Below, piece after piece: positions 1 to 51,647 of a DNA stretch of 64,000 nt. This DNA is from Paracidovorax citrulli. Its GTDB lineage: Bacteria > Pseudomonadota > Gammaproteobacteria > Burkholderiales > Burkholderiaceae_C. How positions within the stretch are numbered: the first letter of the stretch is position 1; each line of letters begins with the position of its first letter. The stretch is from NCBI RefSeq assembly GCF_900100305.1, contig NZ_FNEY01000012.1, positions 62,001 through 126,000 of the forward strand. The letters are read 5' to 3'. The notes under the pieces were generated by a model. The model worked only from the letters and a program-made list of their open reading frames with translations, did no database searches and was not told the DNA's origin. The position numbers and the translations under genes are program-made.

Positions 1-1527
<1,527 letters not shown>

Positions 1528-45661: not shown

Positions 45662-48373
45662 TCAGTCGGCGAGCGCGCGGCCGACCACCTCGCGCACGTC
45701 GTTGGACAGGTCGGGCTTCGCCGCCACGCGGGCGATGGCGTCGCGCGCGGCCGTCCGGTAGGGCTCGGCGAGCTTGCTCCAGCGGTCGAGGGCCCGCGCG
45801 AGGCGGGCCGCCACCTGCGGGTTCAGCGCATCGAGCTCGATCACGCGGTCCGCCCAGAAGGCGTAGCCCGCGGCGTCCTGGCGATGGAAGGCTCCGGGGT
45901 TGGCGCTGCAGTAGCTGAAGATCAGGCTGCGCGCGCGGTTCGGGTTCTTGAGGCTGAAGTCCGGGTGCTTCATCAGCTGCTTCACGGCGGGCAGCACGTC
46001 GCCGCCGCGGTCCGGCGCGCCGGCCTGCAGCGAGAACCACTTGTCCAGCACCAGCGCCTCGTCCTTGAACATCGCATGGAAGCGCGCCAGGGCCTGCGCG
46101 GCGAGGGGCTGGCCGCTGGCCACCAGGGCGGTCAGCGCGTTGAAGCGGTCGGTCATGTTGCCCGCGTCCTTGAAGCGCTGGTAGGCCTTGCCCGGCCAGA
46201 CGGCATCACCCGTGCGGCGCGCCGCCAGGCACAGCATCGACAGCGCCATGCCCGCCAGCGCGCGGCGGCCGGAGGAGATCGCGTCAGGGCGGTAGGCGCC
46301 GGTGTCGTGGTGCTGCTCCCATGTCCATTCCCAGTCCGCCTGCAGCGCCACGGCCAGTTGCTGGCGCATGGCCTCGCGCACCGCGTGCACGCGCTGCGGA
46401 TCGACCACGTCGAGCTGCTCGGCGATGTAGCCCTCGGAGGGCAGGGCGAGTACCAGTTCCTTGAAGGCGGCGTCCAGTGCGGGATGGCGCAGCACGTCGC
46501 GCATCGCGGCGACGAAGCTCGCCGGCAGCAGTTCCCGCTGCAGCACGCCGTCGGCGGGGACGTCCAGCGACGTGTCGCCGATGGCCTGGATGGCGATGCG
46601 CAGCGCGAGGCGCTGGCCGGCCTCCCAGCGGTTGAACGGGTCGGTGTCGTGCGCGAGCAGCGCGAGCAATTGCGCGTCTGTGGCCTCGATGTCCAGCAGC
46701 ACCGGGGCGCTGAAGCCGCGCAGCAGCGACGGCACCGGCTCCGACGGCACGTTCACGAACGTGTAGGTGTGTACCGGCTCGGTGAGCACCACGGTGCGGT
46801 CCGGTCCGCCGGCTTCGGCCTCGCCTTCCAGCTGCAGGGGCAGGGCGCTGCCGTCGGCGCCGAGCAGTCCCAGCGCCACGGGGATCACCATCGGTTCCTT
46901 CACGGGCTGGCCGGGTGTGGGCGCGATGCTTTGCTCCAGCGTGAGCGTGTAGGTGCGTGCGCCGGCGTCGTAGGCTCCGCGGGCGCGCACGCGCGGCGTG
47001 CCGGCCTGGGCGTACCAGCGCTTGAACTGCGGCAGCAGGCGCGCGAGCTCGCTGTCCGGGTTGGCGTCGGCGATGGCCTGGGCGAAGTCGTCGCACGTCA
47101 CGGCCTGGCCGTCGTGGCGCTCGAAGTAGAGCTTCATGCCCGCGGCGAAACCGTCGCGGCCGACGAGCGTGTGCATCATGCGCACGACCTCGGCACCCTT
47201 CTCGTAGATGGTGACGGTGTAGAAGTTGTTGATCTCGACGTAGCTGTCGGGGCGCACCGGATGCGCCATCGGGCCGGCGTCCTCGGGGAACTGCACGGTG
47301 CGCAGCACGCGCACGTCCTCGATGCGCTTGACGGCGCGCGCCGACGGGCTGCCCGAGAGATCCTGGCTGAATTCCTGGTCGCGGAAGACGGTGAGGCCTT
47401 CCTTGAGCGAGAGCTGGAACCAGTCGCGGCAGGTCACGCGGTTGCCGGTCCAGTTGTGGAAGTATTCATGGCCCACCACCGATTCGATGTTCCCGAAATC
47501 GGCATCCGTGGCCGCGGACTGGCTCGCCAGCACGTACTTCGTGTTGAAGATGTTCAGGCCCTTGTTCTCCATCGCGCCCATGTTGAAGTCGCTGGTGGCG
47601 ACGATCATGAAGCGCTCCAGGTCGAGCGGCAGGCCGAAGCGCGCCTCGTCCCAGGCGATGCTGGCCATGAGCGAGTTCATCGCATGCTCGGTCTTCTCCA
47701 GGTCGCCCGGGCGCACGAAGATCTGCAGCAGGTGGTCATTGCCCGACCGGGCGCGGATGCGCTGCTCGCGCGCCACCAGCTTGCCGGCCACCAGCGCGAA
47801 CAGGTAGCAGGGCTTCTTGTGCGGATCGACCCACCTGGCGAAGTGCCGGCCGTCGTCGAGCAGGCCCTGGTCCACCAGGTTGCCGTTGGACAGCAGCACC
47901 GGGTACTCGGCCTTGTCGGCGCGCAGCGTGACGGTGTAGCTCGCCATCACGTCGGGGCGGTCGAGGAAGTAGGTGATGCGGCGGAAGCCCTCGGCCTCGC
48001 ACTGCGTGAAGAAGGTGCCCTGGCTCACGTAGAGGCCCGAGAGCTGGGTGTTCTTGGCGGGGCAGCAGGTGGTGAAGATCTCCAGGTCGAACGGCTCGTG
48101 GCCCTCGGGCAGGTTCTCCAGCACGAGCTGGCTGCCTTCGAGCTTGAAGGACGTGCCCGCCCCGTTGACCAGCACCCGCGCGAGGTTCAGCTCCTCGCCG
48201 TCCAGGCGCAGGGGCGCCGGCGGCACGTCGCCGTTGCGGCGCACGCGCAGGCGGCTGAGCACGCGGGTCTTGGCGGGATCCAGATCGAACGTGAGGTCCA
48301 CGCTGTCGATCCAGAACGCGGGGGCGGTGTAGTCGGCACGGTGGATGGCCGTGGCGGGTTGTCCTTCACGCAT
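45662..48373 (-). CDS. pepN: aminopeptidase N (M1 family)
   Basis: 903-residue zinc aminopeptidase. The substrate-binding GAMEN motif ([13 protein letters not shown]) is near residue 264, and the zinc motif [20 protein letters not shown] is near residue 299. The catalytic-domain, beta-sandwich and C-terminal helical (DUF3458) domains are all present; the length fits the E. coli PepN type. It releases N-terminal residues in the cytoplasm. GGAG lies 13 nt upstream of the ATG. A 23-codon reading frame overlaps its start. Upstream in the same direction is the ATPase/TOPRIM-like module. Confidence 0.97.
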
Positions 48374-48437
48374 GGGGCGTAATCTCCAGGTTGGGCACGA
48401 GCCGTCTCACGGCGGGGATGGGGTAAATGGGGGTCAT
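48366..48437 (-). other. 23-codon reading frame bridging DUF4276 gene and pepN
   Basis: An ATG at 48437 overlaps the DUF4276 stop (ATGA), and the frame ends in a TGA inside the first codons of pepN (48366-48368). The encoded peptide (MTPIYPIPAVRRLV and nine more residues) is not known. It could couple pepN translation to the upstream module or be chance. Confidence 0.25.
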
Positions 48438-49027
48438 TGGACGAGGTTCAGGACTGCGCGGTCGAGGCGCTGGAAGCTCGGCGAATGTTGCGCGAGGTGC
48501 GTCAGGTTCAACTGTGACGCAATTTTTGCCTGATGCGTGGTGGGTTTGTAGGCCATGCCCTTGGGCTGGGCGGTAGACAGCCAGCCTTTGGCGTCTCTTA
48601 CACCCTCCGGGTCGGTCGGAAAGGAGGCCTCAGGCGAGATGGCTGGCAGGGCCAAGCGTGTGGTCGCCTCATCGTAGAGGAACAGCGATTCGAATTCCTT
48701 TACGATAAAACAGGCCTCGAAAGGATGATCAGCTCGGATGCTATGCGCCATGGTCTTTAGGCTCCGCTCTTCATGCTCGACATCGATGCACCACTCGCAA
48801 TCGAAATCTAGAACGCACAGTACGGCTGCGTTTTCCAGAATGGCTGCTTCAAAAAAACGATCGAAGTTCGCCTTGACTTTGGGCAGTTCGCCCCGGCGCT
48901 GCGGTTTCAACACCTGTACGTCGTAGCGGCCATGGTGTTCAAGGATTCGTCGCAGCAGCACTGGGACTGCGCGCTCGTCGCCTTCGCCTTCCACGATGGG
49001 CAGCAGCCTTTGGCGGATCGCGGTCAT
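48434..49027 (-). CDS. DUF4276 protein, TOPRIM-like
   Basis: 197-residue protein of the DUF4276 family, which adopts a TOPRIM-like fold and is found beside AAA ATPases. Seen: the glutamate motif LLPIVEGEGDERAVPVLL (residues 8-25), the acidic pair in AAVLCVLDFDCEWCIDVE, and the family block FIVKEFESLFLYDEA. The C-terminal YKPTTHQAKIASQL and SPSFQRLDRAVL also fit. Together the Glu and DxD resemble the metal site of OLD-type nucleases. The start overlaps the ATPase stop (ATGA at 49024-49027). GC is low: 29 of 60 in line 48661-48720 by hand count, against 41 of 60 in a sampled pepN line (46321-46380). Confidence 0.85.
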   Translation of the reverse strand: MTAIRQRLLPIVEGEGDERAVPVLLRRILEHHGRYDVQVLKPQRRGELPKVKANFDRFFEAAILENAAVLCVLDFDCEWCIDVEHEERSLKTMAHSIRADHPFEACFIVKEFESLFLYDEATTRLALPAISPEASFPTDPEGVRDAKGWLSTAQPKGMAYKPTTHQAKIASQLNLTHLAQHSPSFQRLDRAVLNLVQ

Positions 49028-50253
49028 GGAGCTTCTTCCGGCTGAAGGCCTTCGGCCGCCATGAATTCGCCCAATGTCATGAGACCGCGCTGCACCGCCT
49101 CTCGCTGCGACTCCTTGATGGGGGCGATGTGCGTGACGCCGTCCTGCATTGTGACGATGCGGATGTTGTCTGGCTCAAAATGCTCAATCAATTGCGGACT
49201 GTGCGTGGTGACGACGACCTGCGTTAGCTCCGCCACTTCTTTAAAGGCTTCGGCGAGCATGGAAAGAACTGCCGGATGGACAGTTTGCTCGGGTTCCTCT
49301 ATCACGATCAGGGAGGGCGTGGGCGCCTGGTACAGCGAGAGCAGGATGCCAAAGACTCGCAGCGTGCCGTCAGATAGCTGAGCCGGATCGAATTGCCGCT
49401 CCGTTGCCCCGTTCTTACCGAAGCGGAAAAAGGGAATGAGGTAGCTACCCACGGGCGTGACCGCCACATCCCTGAAATCGGGCAGCACCACACGCATCAT
49501 TTCGTAGATGCGCTCCAGCACCTGACGGCCTTCTTCCGTGCGTTGTGCGGATCGGATGACGGAGACCCAGTTGCTGCCGTCTTCACGCAGGCTCGTATCT
49601 GCGTGCAGGGTAGTGACTTGCCGCAGGATGTTGGGATAGAGCGAGGAAAATCTCCAGCGCAGGATGTGCCGCTCTAGCGGCTTCCCCAATTCATCGAGGC
49701 CGACCATCCTGGTCTCCTCCAGCAGGGCGCCTAGCGCCAAGCGCTGCGTATCTTCGATGGTGAAGGGGGTATTGGGGGAGATGTTTTTCCTCAGGATCTG
49801 GCCCGCTCCATCCCGGGTGAAACCAAGTTCGTACACTTCCCAATCCCATACCTGCTGCGACTCGTCCTGCGGGAAGAGTTCTTCGTGGTGGTAGGCTGCA
49901 TCCTCGCTTGCCACACGGTAGTTGCCATCGGCGGCGCTGTCGATTTTCAACACATAGTGCGCATGCCGATTCGCATTCTTCTTGAAAGACTGCGTGGCAT
50001 GGATACCGATTTCCACCAAACCGGTTATGTCTGCTTCTCCGCTGTGCTGGCGCAGGCGACCAATACCGCCGCGCGCTGCGACGGCATGGTCCAATCCATC
50101 CCGCACGGCATCGCGCAGGAACTCCAGCGTGCGCACGAAGTTGGTCTTGCCCGTCGCGTTGGGGCCTACTAGCACCGTCACACCAGGAGACAGGTCTACG
50201 CCCACGTCTTCCAGACTGAAACAATGGCGTGCCTCCACGCGAGTCAGCTTCAT
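49024..50253 (-). CDS. AAA/SMC-like ATPase of the DUF4276 module
   Basis: 409-residue RecF/OLD-like ABC-type ATPase. Walker A is VLVGPNATGKTNF (Gly30-Thr37). The signature is LSDGTLRVFGILLS (about 293-306), Walker B is SLIVIEEPEQTVHP (about 314), and the switch His is in VVVTTHSPQLIEHF (about 351). The middle (about residues 60-280) is a long insertion with no TOPRIM domain, so the catalytic part would be the separately coded DUF4276 protein. It starts 7 nt after the prfB stop with a weak GAGG, so translation probably depends on prfB. GC is lower than in the neighbours. It fits a split OLD/PARIS-like defence ATPase; that is inference. Confidence 0.87.
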   Translation of the reverse strand: MKLTRVEARHCFSLEDVGVDLSPGVTVLVGPNATGKTNFVRTLEFLRDAVRDGLDHAVAARGGIGRLRQHSGEADITGLVEIGIHATQSFKKNANRHAHYVLKIDSAADGNYRVASEDAAYHHEELFPQDESQQVWDWEVYELGFTRDGAGQILRKNISPNTPFTIEDTQRLALGALLEETRMVGLDELGKPLERHILRWRFSSLYPNILRQVTTLHADTSLREDGSNWVSVIRSAQRTEEGRQVLERIYEMMRVVLPDFRDVAVTPVGSYLIPFFRFGKNGATERQFDPAQLSDGTLRVFGILLSLYQAPTPSLIVIEEPEQTVHPAVLSMLAEAFKEVAELTQVVVTTHSPQLIEHFEPDNIRIVTMQDGVTHIAPIKESQREAVQRGLMTLGEFMAAEGLQPEEAP

Positions 50254-50260
50254 GGTGGCC

Positions 50261-51365
50261 TCAGACGCCCTGCTTGAGGGAAGCTTCGATAAACACGTCG
50301 AGGTCGCCGTCCAGCACCTTCTGGGTGGCGGAGACTTCGACGTTGGTGCGCAGGTCCTTGATGCGGCTGTTGTCGAGCACGTAGCTGCGGATCTGGTGGC
50401 CCCAGCCCACGTCGGTCTTCGTGTCTTCCAGCTTCTGCTGCTCTTCCATGCGCTTGCGCATCTCGAAGTCGTAGAGGCGGGAGCGCAGGCGCTGCCAGGC
50501 GACATCGCGGTTGCTGTGCTGGCTGCGGCCGTCCTGGCACTGCACGACGATGCCGGTCGGGATGTGCGTCAGGCGCACGGCCGAATCGGTCTTGTTGATG
50601 TGCTGCCCGCCCGCGCCCGATGCGCGGAAGGTGTCGGTGCGCACGTCGGCCGGATTGATGTTGATCTCGATCGAGTCGTCGATCTCGGGATAGACGAACA
50701 GCGAGGCGAAGCTCGTGTGGCGGCCGCCGGAGGAATCGAAAGGGCTCTTGCGCACGAGGCGGTGCACGCCGGTTTCCGTGCGCAGCAGGCCGTAGGCGTA
50801 CTCGCCTTCGATCTTGATCGTCGCGCTCTTGATGCCGGCCACGTCGCCCGGGGTCTCGTCTTCCACCGTGGCCTTGAAGCCCTTGCGCTCGGCGTACTTG
50901 AGGTACTGGCGCAGCAGCATGCCGGCCCAGTCGCAGGCCTCGGTGCCGCCGGCGCCGGCCTGGATATCGACGAAGCAGTTCAGCGGATCGGCCTCGTTGC
51001 TGAACATGCGGCGGAACTCCAGCTCCTCGATGAGCGGACGCAGCTTGCCGGCCTCGGCCTCGATGGTGAGCAGGCCGGCCTCGTCGCCTTCTTCCTTGCT
51101 CATCTCATAGAGCTCGGCGTTGTCCGCCAGCTCGCGCGTGAGCTTGTCGAGCGTGACGACCACCGCGGAGAGCGACTTCTGTTCCTTGCCGAGTTCCTGG
51201 GCCTTCTTGGGATCGTTCCAGACGGACGGATCTTCGAGGGAGGCGTTTACCGTGCGCAGGCGTTCGAATTTGGCATCGAAGTCAAAGATACCTCCGTAAC
51301 TCTTGCGTGCGCTGCGAGAGGTCTTCGAGGGTGGTGCCGATGAGGTTGATGCGTTCTGCGTCCAT
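50261..51365 (-). CDS. prfB: peptide chain release factor 2 with programmed +1 frameshift
   Basis: RF2 recognises UGA and UAA stops. The reading frame opens at 51365 ([20 protein letters not shown]) and reaches an in-frame TGA at 51282-51284 after 27 codons. A +1 shift on CTT-TGA-C continues to 50261, giving 367 residues. The second part carries the stop-recognition tripeptide in [11 protein letters not shown] and the GGQ in [16 protein letters not shown], which triggers peptide release. RF2 level thus controls its own synthesis. The AAA ATPase gene follows after 7 nt. Confidence 0.97.
51282..51295 (-). promoter_or_regulatory. prfB programmed frameshift site
   Basis: On the minus strand GGAGG-TAT-CTT-TGA-C: an internal Shine-Dalgarno three nucleotides before the CTT slip codon and a TGA stop followed by C, the arrangement known from E. 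coli prfB. Confidence 0.95.
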
Positions 51366-51383
51366 GGTGTGTCCTGTGTGCGG

Positions 51384-51413
51384 TTCGTATGAAGTAACCG
51401 GCGATTTTGTCAT
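51384..51413 (-). promoter_or_regulatory. possible prfB promoter
   Basis: ATGACA (51413-51408) and TACGAA (51389-51384) are 18 bp apart, 19 nt upstream of the prfB start. The -35 matches consensus at five of six bases; the -10 is weak. The rest of the 282-bp gap (51366-51647) between prfB and the glycosylase gene shows nothing else recognisable. Confidence 0.4.
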
Positions 51414-51647
51414 GGGCGCACGACGGCTTCCGCAATGCCCCCTCCGGACGGCGGAACGGGGCACCGGAAGGCGGTGGCGGGGCGGCTTTTCGCACCATCA
51501 CCAGCGGCGGAGCCGTCGCCGCGGTATCGGCGGCTTCCCACAGCCGGACGTGGTACTGGAGGGTGCGGATGGGCAACCGTTCGCTGCGCGAGGTTCGGAG
51601 GGGCTGGTACGTGCGCCGATTATTGGCATGCGGAGCAGGCCCGGCAG

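Follow-up and report, generated by a model that had tools for sequence, protein, structure and literature searches.

In PARIS, the nuclease AriB is described as kept inactive by the ATPase AriA until phage proteins cause it to be set free as a tRNase (PMC12409363), and in WonAB another OLD-ABC ATPase is reported to control a nuclease that stops translation (PMC12137116). A 2026 paper credits Aravind and colleagues with an earlier description of operons of OLD-ABC and TOPRIM genes (PMC12839542). A catalogued candidate defence system, HEC-01 (Hma-embedded candidate 01), goes back to a 2024 preprint by Payne, as cited in PMC12988326; according to the same source several of the HECs were active in assays, and HEC-01 is not named as such in the part of the text that was available. 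The present analysis concerns a gene pair in a 64,000-nucleotide stretch of Paracidovorax citrulli DNA (contig NZ_FNEY01000012.1, positions 62,001 to 126,000), referred to here as the window. The order of genes on its minus strand is prfB, ATPase, DUF4276 and pepN, and an earlier note made from the letters of the window had proposed the two middle genes as a candidate defence module. Judged by its sequence the pair is a member of HEC-01, and it probably works like PARIS, with an ATPase that senses phage and unleashes a nuclease, resulting in an abortive outcome.

Membership in HEC-01 and the predicted TOPRIM nuclease

Using the models of PADLOC-DB 2.0.0 (2023), the ATPase matched the HEC-01A model PDLC04178 with 345.3 bits (residues 2-408), and the nuclease matched the HEC-01B model PDLC04196 with 149.3 bits (residues 7-196). 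The nuclease hit eight PADLOC families, every one of them HEC-01B, and the two genes are adjacent on the same strand with a 4-nt overlap, as the earlier note had stated and as the coordinates and the shared ATGA confirm. Because both proteins match the HEC-01 models, the pair can be assigned to this system at the level of sequence, the assignment being made by models and adjacency in place of PADLOC's own system rule. The view of the earlier note that the pairing is not characterised has to be given up, since it was already modelled in PADLOC-DB in 2023 and HEC-01 is named among the DefenseFinder predictions of a 2025 paper (PMC12724379). No activity test of HEC-01 was found in the literature searched, outside of which lie Payne 2024 and Krishnan 2020, either of which could hold a test or description, and neither DUF4276 nor PF14103 was found by name among the papers listed there. 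What is added here is the patchy presence at one site, the single clade and the exchange of an ATPase block; the pairing itself is already catalogued.

Pfam DUF4276 (PF14103) was recognized in the nuclease with 61 bits (cut-off 30.2), and the translation contains the motifs VEGEGDE (E13, D17) and LDFD (D74, D76). The best structural matches of the predicted model were the C-terminal regions of OLD proteins and PARIS AriB; the closest solved fold was BpOLD, and the model has a TOPRIM fold. In the alignment E13, D74, E113 and K147 are conserved in 79/79 sequences, position 17 is E or D in 79/79, and E111 and D76 are found in 78/79 and 77/79, the other two having E in place of D76. E404, T506, E508 and K562 of BpOLD have counterparts in the same order, with E111 being a Glu at the position of the BpOLD Thr; the residues were matched by order, and positions 13 and 17 also by the aligned range (4..197 to 391..591). 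On the basis of these structural matches and of the BpOLD catalytic positions found in order, the DUF4276 protein is predicted to be an OLD-type TOPRIM. A sequence search of the PDB returned no relative of the protein or of its profile. DUF4276, which is still listed as 'unknown function' in Pfam, would thus gain a concrete enzyme assignment that is testable by single-residue inactivation.

The ATPase matched Pfam AAA_21 with 113.4 bits (cut-off 27), and its translation contains Walker A (GPNATGKT, 30-37), LSDGT (293-297), IEEPE (318-322) and TTHSP (349-353), so that all motifs listed in the earlier note for both proteins are present. The Walker A, signature and Walker B positions are invariant or nearly so across 66 aligned ATPase sequences. 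The predicted structure (predicted local distance difference test score, 92.4) matched the ATPase heads of SMC, Rad50 and PtuA. The division of ATPase and TOPRIM functions over two genes, which had been claimed from the motifs, is borne out by the predicted folds and the active-site residues.

Presence and exchange at the prfB-pepN site

The earlier note had suggested that the interval between prfB and pepN be examined as a variable locus. Across 17 Paracidovorax genomes, all of which have pepN, the pair lies exactly between prfB and pepN in seven, the site is empty in nine, and another gene is present in one. At the nine empty sites the two genes are only 28-37 nt apart (stop codon included). 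In the remaining genome (G001, L027:4433-5502), an unrelated gene of about 1.2 kb with an exported-looking N-terminus replaces the pair. When presence of the pair was mapped on the pepN tree, at least six changes were required, and since as few were needed in 400/500 label shuffles, presence does not follow descent. One row of this tree (G005) has pepN split over two frames and was used as such; the gene (L030, L031; G005:C1:4098866-4101572) is either disrupted or misread. The two outcomes that the earlier note had named as fatal did not arise: the pair is not universal at genome-average GC, and the metal residues of the DUF4276 protein correspond, by their order, to those of an OLD-type TOPRIM.

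The nuclease was matched in 13/399 sampled genomes of the family, and seven of these 13 matches are at the prfB-pepN site, in three Paracidovorax genomes and in four other genera (G203, G267, G157, G332). A metagenome-assembled genome (L066) also carries the pair there. In G157, G332 and L066 the nuclease is separated from pepN by a gene whose motif suggests a HAD phosphatase; a gene of this appearance is frequent in the prfB-pepN interval of the family (L154, L153, L155, L156, L157, L066), where the gap is about 0.6-0.9 kb in 30/126 genomes. In a census covering 134 of 200 genomes of the family, prfB and pepN were near each other on one strand in 126/134, and the gaps among these 126, which are approximate as they were measured from match ends, were below 150 nt in 86, 150-400 nt in 6 and 619-865 nt in 30, with 1296 nt in G001 and about 1.8-1.9 kb in the window's own genome (G000), G119 and G203. 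The interval of G119 is filled by other genes. The phylum-wide search gave a match in 32/398 genomes, mostly weak and partial.

An ATPase tree was built from 74 rows, and in it the 10 from the prfB-pepN site form one side of a branch with a support of 100; other ATPases from the same family fall elsewhere in the tree and in the genome. This clade includes four genera besides Paracidovorax and one metagenome-assembled genome. The simplest account is that the pair has long resided at this site and has been lost and brought back in many times, the return probably occurring by homologous recombination in the flanking prfB and pepN. Neither an integrase nor an attachment site was noticed at the site, although no search was aimed at either.

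In the comparison of G006 with G016, differences at four-fold sites amount to 2/47, 9/109, 2/44 and 4/92 over the whole pair, whereas pepN differs at 91/494; as the pair is far less diverged than pepN, the sequences point to a recent transfer of the whole pair between these lineages. For G010 against G012, ATPase codons 91-320 showed 6/117 such differences, the nuclease 36/85 and pepN 101/472. The comparison of G010 with G011 gave 37/62, 14/97 and 97/481, respectively, with amino-acid identities of 53% in the ATPase block and 96% in the nuclease. The identities of the window copy agree with a block exchange of ATPase residues ~91-320 relative to the nuclease gene; the bounds were chosen after inspection of the data, which makes the Fisher values descriptive. 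The exchanged block takes in the ABC signature and the greater part of the insert that separates it from Walker A, and this block would be the natural place for a sensor. These alleles amount to a natural experiment, with nearly the same nuclease and exchanged ATPase blocks at one site, in species that otherwise have an empty site. From such alleles one could learn whether phage specificity lies in the exchanged block, a question of interest for OLD-type sensors.

The features of the locus are collected in Table 1. The GC content is 0.592 (0.71 at third codon positions) for the ATPase gene and 0.579 (0.68) for the DUF4276 gene, compared to 0.699 (0.94) for pepN and 0.656 (0.92) for prfB, which agrees with the lower GC noted earlier from a few lines of sequence. 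Only 1/622 sliding 1.82-kb stretches of the window has a GC content as low as that of the pair, and both measures are likewise below those of the flanks at the prfB-pepN site in eight other genomes examined. The gap from the prfB stop to the ATPase start is 7 nt and no promoter-like site was found in 48300-51500, so that transcription and translation in common with prfB are plausible from the sequence. Three terminator-like sites were found in the same region, no more than shuffled sequences give.

Table 1. Features of the pair and its flanks in the window.
Feature	Positions	Strand	Remark
OLD-type ABC ATPase (HEC-01A-like), 409 aa	49024-50253	minus	presumed sensor/regulator
DUF4276 protein (HEC-01B-like), 197 aa, predicted OLD-type TOPRIM nuclease	48434-49027	minus	presumed effector
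4-nt ATGA overlap	49024-49027	minus	ATPase stop and DUF4276 start
prfB (RF2), part listed as open frame	50261-51163	minus	upstream flank, likely common transcript
pepN	45662-48373	minus	downstream flank
GAGG, possible ATPase Shine-Dalgarno	50259-50262	minus	overlaps prfB TGA stop (50261-50263); role presumed
ATPase codons 91-320, lineage-exchanged block	49294-49983	minus	presumed sensor region; secondary structure from model

At 51281-51295 on the minus strand, prfB contains GGAGGTATCTTTGAC, which resembles the autoregulatory +1 frameshift site of RF2; a short frame ends at the TGA of GGAGGTATCTTTGAC, and the RF2 frame continues in +1. It is conceivable, if doubtful, that the clade settled in the prfB operon so that its expression follows the supply of RF2. 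The module would then be translated in step with RF2 frameshift control, low termination capacity during infection or translation stress would raise the levels of sensor and nuclease, and the nuclease would block translation. The hints are the confinement of the clade to the prfB-pepN site in at least five genera, the frameshift-like site, the GAGG over the TGA, and a distant member of the pair in a metagenome-assembled genome of candidate division FCPU426 (L084:2787-7122), where the order is prfB, ATPase, DUF4276 and lysS. Against them, prfB ends with TAA or TAG in 4/5 copies outside Paracidovorax, where the GAGG overlap is missing; most fetched HEC-01 copies are away from prfB; and L084, the only one near prfB beyond the prfB-pepN loci among the genome-contig loci fetched, is a single post hoc case among 75 loci outside that site. 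If true, the link would tie an immune module to the translation-termination state of the cell.

Relatives elsewhere in genomes

A profile scan of genome contigs with the DUF4276 alignment gave 172 relatives, the best 80 of which were fetched. A same-strand upstream ATPase of this family was found in 76 of these 80, and the pairing therefore exceeds chance. The automatic rule gave 70/80, to which six loci (L064, L068, L081, L092, L096, L100) were added that had missed the rule solely through a stop-to-stop frame starting far upstream. Among the 76, the ATPase frame is broken or short in L128 and L132, and the four without an upstream ATPase are L074, L126 and two (L121, L138) that begin at the edge of the locus. 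The genome of the window itself carries a second DUF4276 gene (contig C56:18435-19672; L001, L047; 185.5 bits to PF14103), which belongs to a different DUF4276 subfamily and lies directly 3' of an AAA-type ATPase.

For the neighbours of the relatives, the scan took in 50 of the 64 proteins found upstream and 53 of the 60 found downstream. Loci at prfB-pepN were set aside, as were frames that were short or doubtful, and for L084 the prfB frame was used in place of an opposite-strand frame. Type I specificity domains were found in 5/50 upstream proteins, and HsdR-type domains in 4/53 downstream proteins, together with two HmaC, one BrxL and one PglZ. These restriction, BREX and Hma neighbours represent an association, which is partly circular because HEC-01 was defined by its embedding in Hma.

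A tRNA gene lies about 500 nt or less upstream of the ATPase in only 3/60 scanned loci (L071, L101, L107), a scan that covered loci other than prfB-pepN, and tRNA genes were rejected as insertion points. In records of mobile elements the nuclease matched one unannotated phage record (28.9%) and three Streptomyces plasmids (~31%), the ATPase gave 248 plasmid matches, all below 60% identity, and none of 158 pattern matches in IMG/VR was a relative. Carriage by mobile elements was rejected, as the plasmid and phage record searches gave no close relative.

Proposed mechanism and comparison with known systems

By analogy with PARIS, sensing would fall to the ATPase, and killing or arrest to the TOPRIM. 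The OLD-type ABC ATPase would form an ATP-dependent assembly that holds the small DUF4276 nuclease inactive. Upon infection it would recognize a phage product via its variable insert region, and the resulting conformational change would release or activate the nuclease. Using a two-metal mechanism, the nuclease would then cut nucleic acid of the host, in all likelihood an RNA (for instance tRNA), and this cleavage would stop the infected cell. The analysis shows the pairing, the OLD-type TOPRIM fold and active site, the ABC motifs and fold, the patchy presence, the block exchange and the restriction, BREX and Hma neighbours of relatives; complex formation, phage sensing, nuclease activation, the substrate and the abortive outcome are inferred.

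Several observations weigh against the PARIS-like scheme. In structure DUF4276 resembles OLD only distantly (identity of 8-15%, Foldseek TM score 0.44, root-mean-square deviation 8.2), and no TOPRIM was found when the PDB was searched with a DUF4276 profile. The SMC, Rad50 and PtuA heads match the ATPase at tied Z scores, so that its fold gives no preference to AriA or OLD. OLD ATPases are not all defence proteins, an example being Cran1 (as described in PMC12796447). The window copy is surrounded by housekeeping genes rather than by a defence island, its clade keeps to a single site, as would hardly be expected of a defence cassette that roams, and most neighbours of relatives are ordinary genes, with most families seen once.

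Perhaps the most serious alternative, which we regard as possible, is that the same module is at work with an activated TOPRIM whose target is not tRNA but DNA of phage, host or both, as it is in Gabija and BpOLD. BpOLD is after all the closest solved fold, and its C-terminal region is reported to degrade DNA with these residues (PMC6755086), but the split two-gene architecture resembles PARIS, in which AriB is a tRNase (PMC12409363), no helicase partner is present in the window, and the nuclease is small and not fused to the ATPase. A non-defence module for translation or DNA maintenance, kept by prfB for housekeeping, is unlikely. In its favour, one clade remains at prfB-pepN across five or more genera and in a metagenome-assembled genome, L084 has an unrelated member flanked by prfB and lysS, and a role in the cell cycle is described for an archaeal OLD ATPase in PMC12796447. 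However, the pair is absent from the site in 10/17 Paracidovorax genomes, only 13/399 family genomes have a match anywhere, and repeated gain or loss, low GC at third codon positions and block exchange are not housekeeping-like. A selfish toxin-antitoxin-like pair, in which a TOPRIM toxin held by the ATPase persists through addiction, would fit the overlapping two-gene order, the patchy presence and the AbiEii toxin named in the Pfam AAA_21 description, but is highly improbable given the cleanly empty sites in nine genomes, the reports that either PARIS gene can be deleted without toxicity (PMC9122126) and that the WonAB nuclease is toxic only with its ATPase (PMC12137116), and the plasmid and phage record searches, in which no close relative was found.

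The PARIS-like reading of a HEC-01 pair can finally be set beside the systems already described. The ATPase resembles Mad3 of MADS (NCBIfam MADS3, 105.5 bits; PADLOC mad3, 79.8 bits), and MADS was rejected by score, as the NCBIfam cut-off is 420. Gabija does not apply, with ATPase and nuclease unfused and with prfB and pepN as neighbours in place of an adjoining GajB helicase. WonAB and the PtuAB of Septu and retrons are similar in that an ABC ATPase controls a separate nuclease, and PtuA heads are among the structural matches of the window ATPase; however, the nuclease is HNH in PtuAB and is given as PD-(D/E)xK for WonB (PMC12137116), whereas here it is predicted to be TOPRIM. The OLD nucleases BpOLD, XccOLD and TsOLD share the TOPRIM, the helical region and the order of catalytic positions, but have ATPase and TOPRIM in one chain, and classes 1-3 of the OLD family were rejected for the two genes seen here. 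The kinship to PARIS and OLD proposed in the earlier note is sustained by the split ATPase/TOPRIM architecture, and not as membership in PARIS itself: PARIS also has separate ABC ATPase and TOPRIM genes (AriA and AriB), but AriB is a DUF4435 protein, DUF4276 was the only match in the nuclease at E-values up to 1, with DUF4435 unmatched, and the HEC-01 models score much higher. PARIS is further marked by activation through anti-restriction proteins such as Ocr and by the cutting of tRNA. With HEC-01 both proteins match strongly and the gene order is the same, the difference being that the window copy sits between prfB and pepN and not within an Hma operon.
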